From contig NZDE01000010.1 in the NCBI GenBank assembly GCA_002690045.1, positions 1-64,000 on the forward strand: 64,000 nt of DNA, read 5' to 3'. The stretch comes from Alphaproteobacteria bacterium (GTDB taxonomy: Bacteria > Pseudomonadota > Alphaproteobacteria > Micavibrionales > Micavibrionaceae). The translations under genes were made by a program, and so were the position numbers. Below are positions 1 through 39,043 of the stretch, piece by piece. How positions within the stretch are numbered: the first letter of the stretch is position 1; every line of letters begins with the position of its first letter. The notes under the pieces are model-generated. The model saw nothing but the letters and a program-made list of their open reading frames with translations, was not told the DNA's origin and did not search any database.

Positions 1-988
<988 letters not shown>

Positions 989-1043
989 CTAAACTACAAG
1001 CGCGCAGTAGCAAAAATATTTGTTAATGCAAACTTTCGCTAAT

Positions 1044-1061
1044 AAGATAATTCGTTATCTT
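1044..1061 (+). other. Spacer hairpin with TTCG loop in 23S-5S spacer
   Basis: AAGATAA and TTATCTT form a perfect 7-bp stem closed by a TTCG tetraloop between the 23S and 5S genes. It is probably part of rRNA precursor folding or processing. No tRNA gene is visible in this spacer. Confidence 0.4.
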
Positions 1062-1103
1062 GGCTGTTAGCCATTAATTATTTCATTATAACTGAGTTTG
1101 GTT

Positions 1104-1221
1104 GAGCTGGTGATTTTAGCACGGTTGAAACACGAGATCCCATCCCGAACTCTAGCGTGAAACGCCGTTGCGCCGATGGTACTCCGTCTTAAGGCGCGGG
1201 AGAGTAGGTCGTTGCCAGCTC
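1104..1221 (+). rRNA. rrf: 5S rRNA
   Basis: The terminal helix I is formed by GAGCTGG (1104-1110) and CCAGCTC (1215-1221). The conserved loop B/C sequence CCCATCCCGAACTC and the loop E region GGTACT are both present, and the length of 118 nt is normal. A further precursor stem (ACTGAGTTT at 1091-1099 with AAACTCAGT at 1226-1234) flanks the gene, as expected for an RNase-processed rrn transcript. It lies about 115 bp downstream of 23S. No initiator tRNA follows, unlike many alphaproteobacterial rrn operons. Confidence 0.95.
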
Positions 1222-32101: not shown

Positions 32102-32188
32102 GCCAGAGTGGCGGAATTGGTAGACGCACCGGATTCAAAATCCGGCGATAGCAATATCGTGCCGGTTCGAGTCCGGCCTCTGGTACCA
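32102..32188 (+). tRNA. tRNA-Leu, anticodon CAA
   Basis: A complete cloverleaf: acceptor stem GCCAGAG with CTCTGGT (one G-U), a 17-nt anticodon arm CCGGA-loop-TCCGG with anticodon CAA at 32136-32138, a long leucine-type variable arm (CGATAGCAATATCG), the TTCGAGTCC T-arm and an encoded CCA at 32186-32188. It reads UUG codons. It is divergent from ilvI. Confidence 0.95.
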
Positions 32189-32918: not shown

Positions 32919-32941
32919 AAAAAGAAAAGCCCCGCATGGGG
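32919..32941 (-). terminator. Weak terminator-like hairpin after the Clp-like operon
   Basis: On the minus strand CCCC-ATGC-GGGG is followed by CTTTTCTTTTT. The stem is only 4 bp of pure G+C and the T run is interrupted, so its efficiency is doubtful. Confidence 0.4.
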
Positions 32942-33092
32942 TGACATGCAAGGCTTTCCTATAGGACACAAAACTCTTTCTGATCGTTTGATCTCACTTT
33001 ATGTCGGCGTCTTATCTCGTTTACCTATTTTCATAGGCTTCACTCGATATGACTTGTCCTAAAGCGCGCTTAAACGACCACTTTTTCGGCGG

Positions 33093-34283
33093 TTAATCCA
33101 CTTTCATTTTCGGGCCATTTTCAATTGAAATGCTGGCCGTCAATGTTACATCTTGGTTATCGTTGCTGATATAACCGTTTGTGGCGTTGTTAAACTGCAC
33201 ACTTGTTGTTTTATCAGCATCGGCATCTTTATTTTCTTCGGTTTGTTCCGCTTCTTCATCGTCACCAAAGGCCATATCCCATGCACCAGTAGCAAGATCG
33301 CCAACGCCTTCAACAGCCCAGCTTACAGCGCCAAAAATGCCGGATAAGATGCTATCACCTGTACGGACGACGTAATCAAGCGTACCTGGGTTGCTATCAT
33401 AGTAATAGAAGCCGCCTTGCTCATAGACTTCGCCGCCTTCTTTGGTGACTTCACCAGTTTTCGGATCAACAACGTCTTTTTCAAGATATTCTTCTAGCTC
33501 TTCAAAAGTATCTTTACACACTGGTTCGCCGAGTATTGATGGGCGGAACGCTTTGAATAAATATGCGCTTTTGAATGTGGTGTTAATTGCACAGACTTTG
33601 TTATCAGATGTATTGAGCATGCTGACAACTTCGTCTTCAGGGTCGTAGCCAACAAGGCTGACATTGCTGATTGCGTAAGTTAAGTCATACCAGCTATTAT
33701 CTGGAATGTTGAAACGTAATAAATACTCTTTGCTTAACTTGCGGTCTTCATCTTCTATGAATTGTGCAGCAACGGTCATATCTGATGAGTTCGCTTTGTT
33801 CATCATGTAGATAGGGTCATCGCGCATAGCGGCAAAGCCAGCTTTGACAGTATCTACGGGGAGAGTTGCTGCGAAGCTTGCGGTCCAAATTGCGGCGGTA
33901 AAAGCCGCCGGAAATGCAAGAACATTAAAATAGCCTTTAGGTCCAGTCGGCAGTTTAGGGTGTCGGCCGCCAAATTCATCCTTATACGTTAATTCTTGAC
34001 CAAGGTTCTTCCACCATTTTTTTGTATGGCCCCATGTGTAATCACGTAATGCGCCAGTTTTGCTCCACGCCCATGATAATGCAGACGTACCGTATAGCCA
34101 TGCGACGGACCCTATGCGATAGGCCGCTTGAGCTGTTCCGGCGACTAATGCTATGGCTACGCCAGTACTATCTGAAATGGCTTTTTGATTTTTTTTGTTT
34201 TTTATAAAGTCCGCAGACCCTTTAACTAGCTCGTCACCAATATCAGTAACGTCGTCATCATTTTTTTTGTTATCTGTACTCAT
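33093..34283 (-). CDS. Unknown protein of the Clp-like operon, putative membrane-associated
   Basis: A 396-aa protein with no recognised family. A charged N-terminus (about 1-35) precedes a hydrophobic stretch about 40-75 (VAIALVAGTAQAAY...LYGTSALSWAWSK) and a second at about 118-150 (YFNVLAFPAAFTAAIWTASFAATLPVDTV). The middle is an ordered, soluble-looking domain with two cysteines. The C-terminus is acidic and low complexity (DDEEAEQTEENKDADADK) before a final beta-like segment. AGGAG precedes the ATG. It is the last gene of the three-gene operon, 27 bp after the Clp-like ATPase, and I infer it works with it. Confidence 0.7.
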   Translation of the reverse strand: MSTDNKKNDDDVTDIGDELVKGSADFIKNKKNQKAISDSTGVAIALVAGTAQAAYRIGSVAWLYGTSALSWAWSKTGALRDYTWGHTKKWWKNLGQELTYKDEFGGRHPKLPTGPKGYFNVLAFPAAFTAAIWTASFAATLPVDTVKAGFAAMRDDPIYMMNKANSSDMTVAAQFIEDEDRKLSKEYLLRFNIPDNSWYDLTYAISNVSLVGYDPEDEVVSMLNTSDNKVCAINTTFKSAYLFKAFRPSILGEPVCKDTFEELEEYLEKDVVDPKTGEVTKEGGEVYEQGGFYYYDSNPGTLDYVVRTGDSILSGIFGAVSWAVEGVGDLATGAWDMAFGDDEEAEQTEENKDADADKTTSVQFNNATNGYISNDNQDVTLTASISIENGPKMKVD

Positions 34284-34310
34284 GTTTCGTGCTCCTATAA
34301 ATAAATCCCT

Positions 34311-36638
34311 TTAAACCACCGCGGCATTTGGGGCAAATGCATTGCTTGCCGAAGGTTTGTTTTCGTTATCAGCCGTTAATGTTTGTGCGGCCTCTTTTAG
34401 ATCATATGTAAATTTACCATCGTTATAACATACTTTTAATACGCCGCAAGTACTTTTCTCATCGGCATCGTTTTCAAGGGCGAGGTTACAGACATAATCA
34501 CCAACATTTTGTTCAAGCATTGTTTGGACAACACGTGCACCGTTTTTCTTTTTATAGTGCTCAGTAACGAAGCGCTGAACGCTCTCATCGTCCATTTCGA
34601 CCGTAAAGTCACCATCCTCACCAACATATTCTTTAGCAAAGGCGCTTACGCGACGGGCTACTACTTTTCTAATAACATCTTCGCTTAAGAAGTCTGCGCA
34701 GACAATTGTACAGCGGTTCAAAAACTCGGGTGAGAAGTGATCGCCAGCCTTAAAAATTTGATCTTTAATTTGTGCTTCCCATACTTCAAAAGGTTGGTCT
34801 GCATTTGGCAAAATGATGTCTTGCTGCCCAAAGTTTGATGTCATGATAATAATGTTATCACGGAAGTCTGCTGTATCTTTACCATTGGCAGATGTGAATT
34901 TACCTTTATCAAGCGGCGTCAAAAGAGCTTGTTTCACGTCTAAATGTGCTTTTTCGATTTCATCCAAAAGCACTACGCCAGATGGGTTTGATTCACTTAT
35001 TTTAATTAGTTCTGCTTTGTCTTCATAGCCGACTAGGCCAGGAGGTGCACCGATCAAACGTGATACGGTTTGCTTTTCTTTAAAGCCTTCCATGTTAACA
35101 ACGCTAATTTTACCGCCGCAAAGCTCTTCGGAGAGGATTTCGGCAATAAAGGTTTTACCAACACCGGATGGGCCGAGGATTAGGAATACACCTTTTGGCT
35201 TGCTCGCTTCTGATTTACGGGCTAGACGCTGTTTTATTGCGCTAATCATTGGGTTGATCATTTGTTCTTGACCCATGACTATGCCGTTGATTTTCGTGTC
35301 AGCTGTGCGGATAAGTTTGCGCAAATCAGGTACATCATTCATGCCAAGTTTGTTTTGTGCATAATCTTGTACGAAATCCGCATCAAGTGTGATTGGGAAA
35401 AGCATTTCATCAATTGCGGCTTGCAGTTTGACATTATCTTTCTTGATCCAGTCATCGGTGCCTTCAATGGTTGTTTTTATTTTTGCAGCGTCACCAGGCA
35501 TATTGCTTTGTTTGTTCTGCGTATCCGTTTGCATAAATTGTTTTAGGCTTTTGTCTTTTACGCGGTCACTGTTTTCACCTTTTAGGCGTTCATATTCTTC
35601 TGCTGATTTTTCTTCAAAAATCTCAATGCAGCGATCTAGCCTTTCTTGTTGTTTAGCTTTTGTTTCTTCGTATTTTTGAATTTCACTACGAATTTCTAGT
35701 ACAGATGCTTTGGCAGCTGTCCACTGATCGTAATCAACTTGTAAATTTGCTTTAATTTGTTCGATTTGTGATTCTAGCGCTGATTTTTCGCTTTCATCTG
35801 CTGTTTTTAACTTGCCTTCTAATGTGGCTAACTCAGCTTCTTGCTCGACAGCGCCTTGCGGCTTGCTGTGATACTTCATGCGGAACGCAGTTGCAACTTC
35901 ATCAAGGAATACTGATGCGTTTTTAGGCATAGAGAAATGACCTAGTGCAGCATAGCGCTTACACAGTTGAACGACTTTCGCAATCGCGTCTTCAGAAATG
36001 TCCAATTGGTAACGTGCATAGCGTTTGGACTCATGTTCAAGCATGGCTGTAACGTCGCTATCCGCCATTGTGTCAATTTTCTGCTCAGTAAAATGGGCAA
36101 GGAAATTTGGGTATGACTTCTTCATAAGATGCATGGCATCTGTATCAAGGCTAAGAATTAGGTCAAAATCATCGCTGCCAATATCTGCGTCTTTTAATTT
36201 ATTGAGGAGTGAAGAGGCACGGCGCTCTGTGACTTCTTTTGCAAAACATGAGCCGTCGTCAATTACTAATACTGGCTTTTTACCAGTGCTGGCTTTTGTT
36301 GATTTTAGTTCTTCTATGACTTCGTCAAAACGTTCTTCAACTGTGGCAATATTTTGCGTGTTGAATAATTCTTGTACGTTAAGGCGTTTGACGTTCAAAT
36401 TCATCATCTCGATGGGCATGAAGTCTGCGCTTAGGCCTTGAACGAAACCTGAAATAAGTGAGCGGCGTCCTATGCCGGCTGGACCTGTTAAAAGAATGCT
36501 GTTATGGCCGTGTTGGTTTAAGCCGCGCGCAAGGTCTACAATGCCTTGATTTGAACCGAAATATTTAAAATCTGGCGCTGTTTCTGTGATGTAATCAGCG
36601 TAATTTTGTAGAATTTTTTTGCTTTGTGTCTTTGACAT
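34311..36638 (-). CDS. Clp/Hsp100-like double-AAA+ protein with degenerate D1
   Basis: A 775-aa protein. The first AAA module (about 30-250) keeps the fold but not catalysis: Walker A reads GPAGIGRR (52-59, Lys replaced by Arg) and Walker B reads VLVIDDGS (123-130). A long coiled coil (about 258-370) follows, similar in place to the ClpB middle domain. The second module is canonical: Walker A GPSGVGKT 489-496, pore loop GAPPGLVGYE 530-539, Walker B VVLLDEIEKAH 555-565, sensor 1 MTSNFG 599-604, FLNR arginine finger 639-642. There is no Clp N-domain. It probably remodels or unfolds a partner in the cytoplasm. ATG 36638 has GAGGG upstream. It is the middle gene of the operon. Confidence 0.85.
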   Translation of the reverse strand: MSKTQSKKILQNYADYITETAPDFKYFGSNQGIVDLARGLNQHGHNSILLTGPAGIGRRSLISGFVQGLSADFMPIEMMNLNVKRLNVQELFNTQNIATVEERFDEVIEELKSTKASTGKKPVLVIDDGSCFAKEVTERRASSLLNKLKDADIGSDDFDLILSLDTDAMHLMKKSYPNFLAHFTEQKIDTMADSDVTAMLEHESKRYARYQLDISEDAIAKVVQLCKRYAALGHFSMPKNASVFLDEVATAFRMKYHSKPQGAVEQEAELATLEGKLKTADESEKSALESQIEQIKANLQVDYDQWTAAKASVLEIRSEIQKYEETKAKQQERLDRCIEIFEEKSAEEYERLKGENSDRVKDKSLKQFMQTDTQNKQSNMPGDAAKIKTTIEGTDDWIKKDNVKLQAAIDEMLFPITLDADFVQDYAQNKLGMNDVPDLRKLIRTADTKINGIVMGQEQMINPMISAIKQRLARKSEASKPKGVFLILGPSGVGKTFIAEILSEELCGGKISVVNMEGFKEKQTVSRLIGAPPGLVGYEDKAELIKISESNPSGVVLLDEIEKAHLDVKQALLTPLDKGKFTSANGKDTADFRDNIIIMTSNFGQQDIILPNADQPFEVWEAQIKDQIFKAGDHFSPEFLNRCTIVCADFLSEDVIRKVVARRVSAFAKEYVGEDGDFTVEMDDESVQRFVTEHYKKKNGARVVQTMLEQNVGDYVCNLALENDADEKSTCGVLKVCYNDGKFTYDLKEAAQTLTADNENKPSASNAFAPNAAVV

Positions 36639-36706
36639 GCCACCCTCTCTCATGCATCTCTTTTTTATTCTATTATTGTGTCCGTCTTTTTTTGTTTTGT
36701 GTCGGT

Positions 36707-36736
36707 ATAAAGGGGCGGGCTGATCCGCCCCTTTAT
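36707..36736 (-). repeat. Perfect 12-bp hairpin between operon genes
   Basis: ATAAAGGGGCGG and CCGCCCCTTTAT are perfect complements around a 6-nt loop, in the 123-bp gap between the coiled-coil gene and the Clp-like gene. No T run follows in the direction of transcription, so it is not an ordinary terminator. It would protect the upstream mRNA end or set the expression ratio of the two genes. Sigma-factor-independent binding as a DNA dyad is also possible. Confidence 0.65.
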
Positions 36737-36761
36737 GAGATTATGTGTGTCTTACCTCGTC

Positions 36762-38795
36762 TTACTGGCCAGGCTCTTTTGGTTTAGGGCCTTGGAAATA
36801 GCTTGCAGTAGATTGAACTGCCTGTTTTGCGTAGGCTTCATCTTCTTGCATTTTCTGACGCGCTTCGTTTTTACTGTTGCGAGACGTGTTAACAAGCTCT
36901 TGTGCAGATTTTTCAAACTGGTCAGTTGCTTGTGTACCAAGTTTTTGTAGCGCAGCTGTCTTCTTCGCTTCTTCAACCAGTTGTGCTTTTGCCGCATCCA
37001 TGGTTTTTGAAAGGTCAGTAAGCGTCTTGATTGATTCTGCGCGATCCTTATTCGACATTTTCTCGCGGTGGATTGATGCGTAAGTTCCTGTTTTCGCAAT
37101 CATTGCGTTCGTCTTGCTCGCGGCTTGACCGAATTCAGCCATCATGTTGATGTTGATTTCTTGTAGAAGCTGTGAGACTGTCGCTGTTGCGTTTGACGTA
37201 CCTGCGTTAACCATAGTTACCTGATTGTTTTTCAGAGACTCAGTCTTGTGTGTCAGATTAACAGCAGTTTGGTGCGTCTGTGTTGTTTGCGCTAGCGATA
37301 CTGTAATTTGCTCTTCAAATGTAGAGATTTGTTCTAAACGAGAGGAGTAATCACGAAGGAACGATTCATATTCGCGTTGATCTTCTTGCATTTGCTTCAC
37401 ATGTGGTGGAAGGTCGATATATTCCTTTTCAATATTATCAATGGCTTCTAAACGCTCATCTTCAGCTTCAATTTCATTCGCTTTTTCAAGCTCTGCAGCT
37501 TTATCAGATTCAATTTTTTCTAATGCAGCTGTTAGCTCTTCTGAAAGTGCTTTGTAGTCTTTTTCATGTGCAAACAAACCCTTACGAAGACCTGCAACGA
37601 TTGATTTAAGTTCAGAACTTAAGTTCGTGCTTGTGTTCAAAAGTTTTGTTTGGTTTTCTTGTTGAACACCATAAAAATCAATACATTTAGCAAGTTCGCT
37701 TTCCATCAGATTAACAAGTTGCTTACCAGCATCACCGAATTTTTTCGCTTGTTCAGTGAAGTGTGTGTTATCACCGTTACCGATTAATTCTTCAACAGCT
37801 TTTACCGTATCGTCATTAGCCAGTTCTTCTTCGATAGCGTTATATTCAGTTTCTTGCGCTGTAAGTTCAGCTTGTACTGCTTCAAGCGCTTCTTTAGAAC
37901 GGCTGATAGGGCCTTCAAGGTTGCGCACTTGTGGGTTAAGATCGTCAACAACATCATCAGCGGCTTTGATCTTCTTTTTGTATTCTGCAATTGCTTTGCC
38001 GAGTGCATCTTTCTTTTTATTGCCAAAGAATGCCCAGCCACCACTTTCTGCAGCGTAAGCTTGTTCAAGTGTTGCAAGTGGTTGTAGTTTTTTCTGTAGA
38101 ACTTCGCCAGTTTGCTCGTCTTTTACTTCTTCACAGCCTTTTGTGTATTTGTCTTTTTCAGCCTGTGCTTCTTCAACTTCTTTTTGTAATTTCTTCTGTT
38201 TTTCGATTTGCGCGTCATATTCACCCTGCGCTTCTTCAACAGCTTCTGTTTGCGAAATCATCGCAGCTTTCAGTTCATTTGCCTTTTTACGTTTGGCTTT
38301 TGTTTCTGAAATAATGTCTTTAATGCCGCGGCCTTGTTGCTGTGCAGCCATCAAAGCGACAATCGCTTTGTTGTACATTTCAGACAGTTCAGAATAATCT
38401 GACTGGTGCTGGTGGATGGTTTGCAATGTTGTATTGAAAACTTCCGCTTGATCTAGGTTATTGGCATCGCGCACAGCTGAGCTTGTGATGCTAGATAGTT
38501 GAGCATATTGTTCAACAATATTTGCAAGTTCTTGTACTACTGCTTTTGAATCTTCGCCGATGTTAACCTTGACAAAGTCTATCAAGGCTTGTTGTTTTTC
38601 AGCGCCTGTTTTATCAGAAGAAATAATCTGGTAAATCGGGTTGCTTGCCAAACCTTCTTCAGCGGCTTCGTATTTTTGGCCGAAATCTGCTAGGTTTGCT
38701 TCTTGCTGTTCGAATGCGTCTTGTGAAACGGCTGTATTTTCAGCAGTATCTGTTGCATTACCGAACAACGCGTCTAGGTCTAAGTTATCACTCAT
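36762..38795 (-). CDS. Large coiled-coil protein, first gene of the Clp-like operon
   Basis: A 677-aa acidic protein with no signal peptide or membrane segment. It is almost entirely predicted helical, with coiled coil over about 160-350 and 430-650. The N-terminus SDNLDLDALFGNATD is a short linear motif. Parts (about 400-560, ISTFEEQITVSLAQTTQTHQTAV...) look faintly like TelA-type helical proteins, but I do not claim homology. It ends in a Pro-rich GPKPKEPGQ. AGAAGAGGG precedes the ATG. Leading an operon with an Hsp100-like ATPase, it could be a substrate, adaptor or scaffold of that ATPase; this is inference. Confidence 0.75.
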   Translation of the reverse strand: MSDNLDLDALFGNATDTAENTAVSQDAFEQQEANLADFGQKYEAAEEGLASNPIYQIISSDKTGAEKQQALIDFVKVNIGEDSKAVVQELANIVEQYAQLSSITSSAVRDANNLDQAEVFNTTLQTIHQHQSDYSELSEMYNKAIVALMAAQQQGRGIKDIISETKAKRKKANELKAAMISQTEAVEEAQGEYDAQIEKQKKLQKEVEEAQAEKDKYTKGCEEVKDEQTGEVLQKKLQPLATLEQAYAAESGGWAFFGNKKKDALGKAIAEYKKKIKAADDVVDDLNPQVRNLEGPISRSKEALEAVQAELTAQETEYNAIEEELANDDTVKAVEELIGNGDNTHFTEQAKKFGDAGKQLVNLMESELAKCIDFYGVQQENQTKLLNTSTNLSSELKSIVAGLRKGLFAHEKDYKALSEELTAALEKIESDKAAELEKANEIEAEDERLEAIDNIEKEYIDLPPHVKQMQEDQREYESFLRDYSSRLEQISTFEEQITVSLAQTTQTHQTAVNLTHKTESLKNNQVTMVNAGTSNATATVSQLLQEININMMAEFGQAASKTNAMIAKTGTYASIHREKMSNKDRAESIKTLTDLSKTMDAAKAQLVEEAKKTAALQKLGTQATDQFEKSAQELVNTSRNSKNEARQKMQEDEAYAKQAVQSTASYFQGPKPKEPGQ

Positions 38796-38979
38796 TTTTT
38801 GTGCCCTCTTCTGTGCGTTTTACGTAATATAAAATTTATTATGCTCGTCTTTTTAAGGTATTTCCGTAATTGTGTCAATACTTTTTTAACCATTTTATGA
38901 AAATAAATATGTTGTTTGAAGGCGTTTTTATAGGCGATGCCTTATAGCCACAGGCGTTTTATATGAAAAATAAAATATC

Positions 38980-39018
38980 AAAAAACGCCAATTATATGAA
39001 AATTAATTGGCGTTTTTT
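38980..39018 (-). terminator. Intrinsic terminator after argS
   Basis: A perfect 15-bp stem (AAAAAACGCCAATTA with TAATTGGCGTTTTTT) and 9-nt loop lies 26 bp downstream of the argS stop. Because it has A and T runs on both sides it can work in both directions, but the only gene that needs it is argS on the minus strand. Confidence 0.88.
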
Positions 39019-39043
39019 ATGAGAAATTGCTTATAAAATTATT

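Follow-up and report, generated by a model that had tools for sequence, protein, structure and literature searches.

Hsp100 ATPases with partner proteins are known as a molecular kind. The PTEX translocon of Plasmodium is composed of HSP101 (906 amino acids, aa), PTEX150 (993 aa) and EXP2 (287 aa, with a single membrane helix and a conserved disulfide) (PMC7355975), and the nearest precedent that we found for a lineage-specific Hsp100 class is ClpI (PMC10149685). Here we examine a stretch of 64,000 nucleotides (nt) from an Alphaproteobacteria bacterium of the Micavibrionaceae (assembly GCA_002690045.1, contig NZDE01000010.1, positions 1 to 64,000 of the forward strand), hereafter the window, in which three consecutive genes encode a coiled-coil protein (gene 1, cc), an Hsp100-type ATPase (gene 2, hsp) and a putative membrane protein (gene 3, mem). 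Judged by its sequence, this trio combines an Hsp100 variant specific to one lineage with two families of orphan partners. It is undescribed among the open-licence literature matches listed, and what is new relative to those matches is a class with a predicted dead first AAA+ domain (D1) and two orphan partners, confined to one order as sampled. The trio recurs in relatives within that order and may represent a new machine that unfolds proteins in connection with the membrane.

The locus was picked out by a reading of the letters alone, the sequence-only reading, which proposed a three-gene operon at positions 33093-38795. The open reading frames (ORFs) are indeed found there, all on the minus strand, and they follow one another in the same way in other genera, where the neighbouring genes differ.

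A ClpB-like ATPase whose first domain has lost its catalytic residues

Gene 2 (34311-36653, minus strand, 780 aa, with an in-frame second ATG five codons downstream of the first) matches the Pfam families AAA_2 (E 2e-38), AAA_lid_9 and ClpB_D2-small, and its family aligns with the ClpB of the same genome over ClpB residues 153-854 (hhalign, E 1.5e-97). On these alignments the protein is a ClpB-derived Hsp100 that lacks the N-domain: Clp_N is absent among the 25 Pfam families listed for gene 2, whose Pfam matches begin at residue 50, and 49-79 aa precede the D1 P-loop in the family, versus 206 in the genome's own ClpB. The linker between D1 and the second AAA+ domain (D2) has the length of a ClpB M-domain, namely, 238 aa in the window copy (35181-35894, minus strand; length comparison and hhalign) and 216-267 aa in 24 family rows, as compared with 205 in the own ClpB and 83-93 in six other own paralogues; the M-domain of the family carries an invariant Trp. 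None of the 24 family rows has the ClpP-binding loop [ILV]G[FL] in D2, one of them reading MGF, whereas the tripeptide is present in six of the seven own paralogues, ClpB being the one without it. The best reading is that gene 2 encodes a presumably ClpP-independent enzyme.

The claim that D1 had lost the Walker A Lys and the Walker B Glu is borne out by the motifs, which read GPAGIGRRS (36459-36485, Lys to Arg) and VLVIDD (36255-36272, Glu to Asp) on the minus strand. Across the family, 24 of the 28 copies that can be read at Walker A lack its Lys and all 26 that can be read at Walker B lack its Glu, while the YRG pore loop and both Arg fingers are missing in all aligned rows (23 and 24 rows). 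D1 is therefore predicted to be catalytically dead wherever it can be read. In a tree with long branches flagged, the 23 trio ATPases included group together with 100/100 support, separately from the seven own paralogues. The four copies that retain the Walker A Lys (G035, G028, G096 and G100) branch beside the window's genus, so this residue was probably lost at least twice; loss of the Walker B Glu looks ancestral.

D2 was described by the sequence-only reading as canonical and with a pore loop, which holds for its catalytic motifs but not fully for the loop. The P-loop, the DE Walker B, the Arg finger and sensor 2 are kept in 24/24 rows, including the window copy, where the motifs read on the minus strand are an intact Walker A (GPSGVGKT, 35151-35174) and an intact Walker B (LLDEIEKAH, 34944-34970), together with the arginine finger R647 (34713-34715), invariant in alignment A1. 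The pore loop reads APPGLVGY (35025-35048, minus strand), with Leu for Tyr, and the window copy is one of six, among 27 readable, in which this Tyr has become Leu or Phe. Inspection by eye revealed no Sec-type signal in the ATPase, which should therefore be cytoplasmic.

The genome of the window (2.88 Mb) encodes eight Hsp100-type proteins, six of them with ClpP-loop-like tripeptides. One, of 899 aa (G000:C13:216192-217142; L012:9142-11841), has an intact D2 and D1 Walker motifs that cannot be recognized, and is apparently a separate case of D1 decay, independent of the trio ATPase. Another, ClpA/ClpC-like and with an IGF loop, is encoded close downstream of an 876-aa protein that has a TraG/TraD-type C-terminal domain (PF12696), the two together at L011:3625-9213 (G000:C12).

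Linkage and distribution of the three genes

The order, which we take to be Micavibrionales in GTDB terms, was sampled with 142 genomes, that of the window being G000. Gene 1 was found in 29 of them and gene 3 in 24 (whole-genome profile search), and the trio ATPase was at first found in 21 (E <1e-50), a total that reading of the neighbourhoods raised to 28. The neighbourhood search that had been suggested as a check on the prediction returned a consistent picture: gene 1 adjoins the ATPase in 28/28 genomes with a trio-type ATPase, and gene 3 comes next in 24. One of these loci is split over two contigs (G010, where one carries gene 1 and the N-terminal part of the ATPase, and the other its C-terminal part and gene 3), and another has a broken ATPase reading frame (G011). 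The same gene order occurs on a contig of Micavibrio sp. UBA2705 (L009), counted once together with the same-genus genome G002. When flanking genes were compared in 25 genomes, these were common only within genera, three lone links excepted, which means that the trio or the pair is kept together in some 14 contexts, two of them visible on one side only.

To look beyond the order, gene 1 was sought in samples of the class (337 genomes) and of the phylum (349), and gene 3 in 327 genomes of the class. Apart from the window's own genome, the one match was that of gene 1 in G167 (E 2e-7), which was rejected as a chance hit, since it lies in an unrelated coiled-coil ORF without the other trio genes.

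A gene 1 remnant is present in G101 (L135:8694-10091), with no ATPase or gene 3 in the 18 kb examined. J-domain genes lie near the gene 1-gene 2 pair in three of the four genomes of genus g42 (G044, G134 and G135); the J-domain protein of G134 (L136:9619-10581) has in addition a match to an SLT transglycosylase domain (E 1.9e-5), and its counterparts in G044 and G135 show no such match at E 0.001. A PrkA kinase gene adjoins gene 3 in G096 (L048:1-1474), and G070 has a PrkA gene at a distance of about 5 kb from its gene 3 (L058:280-2238).

The two orphan partners

Gene 1 (36762-38795, minus strand, 677 aa; ORF list) encodes a charged, mostly helical coiled-coil protein, the helix content being taken from a low-confidence model (mean predicted local distance difference test score, pLDDT, of 53). 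Its family has no clear membrane helix or strongly hydrophobic segment, with 19-residue maxima of 0.64-1.49. Gene 1 evolves faster than the ATPase, as seen from identities of 18% and 59%, respectively, between G000 and G001. In a leave-one-clade-out search with hidden Markov models (HMMs), six of the seven clades tested were recovered strongly and the window's genus weakly. Since HMM searches behave in this way, homology of genes 1 and 3 between the window's genus and the other genera rests on profile-profile comparison, which for gene 1 gave a probability of 98.3% (E 2.6e-14, 513 columns), against at most 0.9% for 20 column-shuffled decoys and 7.9% and 31.7% for two reversed profiles, which keep their coiled-coil character.

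Gene 3 (33093-34283, minus strand, 396 aa; ORF list) encodes a likely N-in inner-membrane protein of an unnamed family. Its probable membrane helix is the top hydrophobic 19-residue window, VLAFPAAFTAAIWTASFAA (33867-33923, minus strand; mean hydropathy 1.61), and two weaker hydrophobic windows (1.29) are found in this copy at residues 42 and 312. Exactly one 19-residue window exceeds the hydropathy threshold in 19 of 24 gene 3 sequences. The number of Cys residues in the C-terminal domain of these 24 sequences is four in 15, two in three (the window copy included) and none in six, and never odd. Such paired loss suggests disulfides and, therefore, an oxidising compartment for this domain. In addition, if the ATPase is cytoplasmic, gene 3 should be N-in and C-out. 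Taken together, its C-terminal domain is probably periplasmic.

The sequence-only reading recognized no known system of this composition, and suggested remote-homology searches with the 677-aa and 396-aa proteins. These returned no library family at curated cut-offs for either, gene 1 giving only weak coiled-coil-type matches below the cut-offs, and the trio matches no described Clp adaptor family so far. The same reading suggested that the ATPase could be a dedicated unfoldase for an envelope or secretion machine, which stood in part: the third protein does look membrane-anchored, with a disulfide-type outer domain, but a link to secretion or to an envelope machine was not borne out, as the flanks vary and no secretion family is matched among the ten flanking proteins annotated with Pfam, which are housekeeping, regulatory, transport or unknown proteins.

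Other candidate identities were considered and set aside. A relationship of gene 1 with TelA (PF05816), suggested by eye, found no match at E 0.01 in 21 members, and the hhalign probability was 1.1% versus one TelA protein of a relative. As regards a phage or plasmid origin, gene 1 matched nothing in 50,697 phage records, and the gene 1 of a relative matched nothing in 72,556 plasmid records; a weak match of gene 1 with a PHROG tail tape-measure family (E 0.003) was taken as coiled-coil noise. As for defence systems, the PADLOC matches correspond to the AAA+ domain of gene 2 and, in the gene 2 of a relative, to a coiled coil (JetC, LmuB), with none for genes 1 and 3.

Operon layout and an intercistronic hairpin

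The intergenic gaps of the trio are 108 nt between genes 1 and 2 and 27 nt between genes 2 and 3. An intrinsic terminator, with a 16-bp stem and then a T run, follows gene 3 (32923-32960, minus strand; z -5.5 versus shuffles), and a terminator-type hairpin lies between argS and gene 1 (38979-39019, minus strand; z -5.4). As terminator-type hairpins flank both sides, the trio reads as a delimited transcription unit; and because these gaps lie between the two hairpins and other genera, whose flanks differ, share the gene order, the arrangement is not due to chance. A promoter-like TTGACA-17-TAAAAA was read by eye ahead of gene 1 (38850-38878, minus strand). Neither this site nor the hairpin next to argS appears in the list of the consensus scan, which over the whole region counts ten terminator-like sites versus 10.6 in shuffles, that is, no excess, and fewer promoter-like sites than in shuffles.

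The gap between genes 1 and 2 contains a further hairpin, with a 12-bp stem and no T run after it (36707-36736, minus strand; z -6.4 versus shuffles). This feature recurs: 16 of the 20 cc-hsp gaps tested have a hairpin with z < -2.5, as do 5 of 41 control gaps, taken between other genes on the same strand at these loci. Stem sequences vary between genera, and in genera g6 and g49 the cc-hsp gaps are 11-39 nt, two of them tested and without a hairpin and three too short. Intercistronic hairpins can set segment-specific mRNA stability, for instance in the puf operon (PMC7509114), and the one described here suggests that the cell probably produces more of gene 1 than of the ATPase.

Beyond the trio, argS is the upstream neighbour and, past the terminator, a gene with a rhodanese domain is the downstream one (both by Pfam). 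A tRNA-Leu (CAA) gene is found on the plus strand near the operon end (32102-32188), and 23S and 5S rRNA occupy window positions 1-1220.

Functional interpretation

Our preferred explanation, to which we assign a probability of roughly one half, is that the product of the operon is a protein unfoldase, tethered to the membrane and independent of ClpP. The D1 ring would act as a passive platform for hexamer assembly, leaving ATP hydrolysis and substrate pulling to the D2 ring alone. The cytoplasmic N-terminal part of gene 3 would tether the ATPase ring to the inner membrane, where its disulfide-type C-terminal domain may sense or bind something periplasmic. Gene 1 would stand in for the missing Hsp100 N-domain in trans, either as an adaptor or as the main client, and the intercistronic hairpin probably allows its excess over the ATPase. 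The likely task of such an assembly would be to extract or remodel proteins, or protein assemblies, at the inner membrane. A catalytically silent D1 combined with a working D2 on a membrane anchor is already known from Pex1/Pex6 with Pex15 (PMC10518020). Because genes 1 and 2 stay together where gene 3 is absent, we regard them as the core, with gene 3 as the usual anchor.

Several observations weigh against this explanation. In genus g42, genes 1 and 2 are retained but gene 3 was not found, and the membrane part is therefore not universal: the whole-genome profile search did not find gene 3 in G044, G053, G134 or G135 (genomes 79-98% complete), nor does it lie beside the pair in G044, G053 or G134, where the region downstream can be seen; the contig of G135 breaks off within the ATPase. 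Where gene 3 does occur, its membrane helix is only moderately hydrophobic in several rows, extra weak hydrophobic windows appear in four (G000, which is the window's, G001, G010 and G070), no window exceeds the threshold in G082, and six sequences of genus g48 have zero Cys in the outer domain. The structure models, with a mean pLDDT of 53 for gene 1 and of 36 for gene 3, are too poor for use.

The homologies and the hairpin are also less firm in places. When the own genus was left out of the profile, an HMM search left the gene 1 proteins of both the window and G002 unmatched, with G001 alone scoring 22 bits versus 8.4 for the best decoy; for gene 3 the scores were 16.6, 10.7 and 0.8 bits, the first two exceeding the best decoy (7.0). 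In a single-sequence search with the window's gene 1, coiled-coil stretches of two genomes that lack the system (G106, E 4e-5; G056, E 9e-4) scored in the range of the G001 gene (E 4e-4), a same-genus relative at the same place. Profile-profile comparison of gene 3 between the window's genus and the rest gave 89%, which dropped to 1.4% without genus g3, its controls reaching at most 1.2% (shuffled decoys) and 0.5% (reversed). As for the hairpin, 20 of 24 cc-hsp gaps were testable, the other four being too short or too long, and these gaps come from genomes with the pair other than G010, G053, G134 and G135; a strong hairpin is missing in four of the 20, and that of G096 is borderline (z -1.6 on repeat). 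The enrichment (Fisher p 3e-7) counts related genomes as independent and takes its control gaps from mechanically picked ORFs, and the two pairs changed on both sides in the g48 hairpin come from three sequences, with 60 of 500 shuffles reaching the same.

The same data can be read otherwise. Tentatively, gene 1 could assemble itself into a coiled-coil scaffold or filament that gene 3 anchors and that gene 2, as a recycling motor, disassembles, just as ClpV takes apart the type VI sheath. This possibility would account for genes 1 and 2 being the tightest pair, kept in g42 without gene 3, and for the faster divergence of gene 1 relative to the ATPase, and an excess of gene 1, as the recurrent hairpin suggests, is what a structural protein would need; however, polymerisation is supposed for a protein whose model is of low confidence. 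We find it unlikely that the trio is a specialised stress disaggregase, partnered with the Hsp70 system, that has gene 1 to guide aggregates and gene 3 as an accessory. The ClpB-length M-domain with its invariant Trp, the lack of a ClpP loop and the J-domain genes near the pair in 3/4 g42 genomes all fit such a role, but the J-domain neighbours are confined to that one genus, an ordinary ClpB is encoded in the same genome, and D1, which is important in ClpB, is predicted to be dead here.

Transport across the membrane appears less likely still. It could be that a D2-only ClpB-type motor, an orphan coiled-coil collar or adaptor produced in excess by way of the intercistronic hairpin and an oligomeric single-helix membrane protein make up, in these relatives of an epibiotic predator, a three-part protein-threading machine of the inner membrane, which would push or pull proteins across or out of the envelope and would be convergent with PTEX or Pex1/Pex6-Pex15; we consider this doubtful. 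We hold it to be very improbable that the ATPase feeds unfolded cytoplasmic proteins into an inner-membrane passage formed by several gene 3 copies, with gene 1 as a collar, much as PTEX does in Plasmodium. Here the kinds of parts do match HSP101, PTEX150 and EXP2 (PMC7355975), yet the disulfide domain of gene 3 is expected on the membrane side opposite to the ATPase, and is on the same side in PTEX; moreover, gene 3 was not found in g42, and a pore made by it is a supposition for which its model (mean pLDDT 36) is unusable.

If the membrane-tethered unfoldase is correct, it would represent an Hsp100 tied to two orphan protein families, of which one is probably a protein that crosses the inner membrane. 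It could have a bearing on an unusual way of life, although it is present in only about one fifth of the order genomes searched. Micavibrio aeruginosavorus is described as an obligate epibiotic predator, and the available part of the source that reports it contains no word starting with "Clp" (PMC3189940); a search for Micavibrio together with ClpB found no open-licence paper. NCBI taxonomy places M. aeruginosavorus under Bdellovibrionota.

Comparison with known systems

The trio ATPase is closest to ClpB/Hsp104, with which it shares an end-to-end alignment over residues 153-854 of the own ClpB, the long M-domain and the lack of a ClpP loop. It differs in that the N-domain is missing, in that D1 is predicted to be dead and has neither the Tyr of the pore loop nor the Arg fingers, and in that it has dedicated partners within the operon and a clade of its own. 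Thus, of the features expected of a ClpB, it has the long M-domain, but neither Clp_N nor two AAA+ domains that both appear ATPase-competent, and the IGF/LGF-type loop expected of ClpA/ClpC is missing. ClpV/TssH provides the best-scoring NCBIfam model for gene 2 (TIGR03345), but its 233 bits fall far under the model cut-off of 885 bits, and this identity was rejected; no type VI genes are among the ten annotated flanking proteins, the genome not having been searched for them.

Pex1/Pex6 belong to an AAA+ clade other than that of the Hsp100 trio ATPase, and we know of no counterpart of gene 1 in Pex1/Pex6-Pex15. With this system the trio would share a type II AAA+ architecture in which D1 is inactive and D2 active, and membrane attachment via an anchor protein, whereas Pex1/Pex6 is a eukaryotic heterohexamer with N-terminal domains (PMC10518020). 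PTEX resembles the trio in combining a ClpB-type motor, an orphan adaptor and a single-helix membrane protein with a disulfide, and departs from it in that both ATPase domains of HSP101 have Walker A and B, in its topology, and in having its genes on separate chromosomes (PMC7355975). Lastly, ClpI of Actinomycetota is likewise a lineage-specific class of double-ring Hsp100, the third, found from sequence, but its ATPase modules are intact, its M-domain is as long as that of ClpC and its N-domain varies; the available part of the source names no partner genes (PMC10149685). Next to these, the trio would add an Hsp100 class that has lost the D1 catalytic residues throughout a single bacterial clade and yet still varies from member to member in Walker A, a variation that amounts to a natural experiment on the purpose of the D1 ring.

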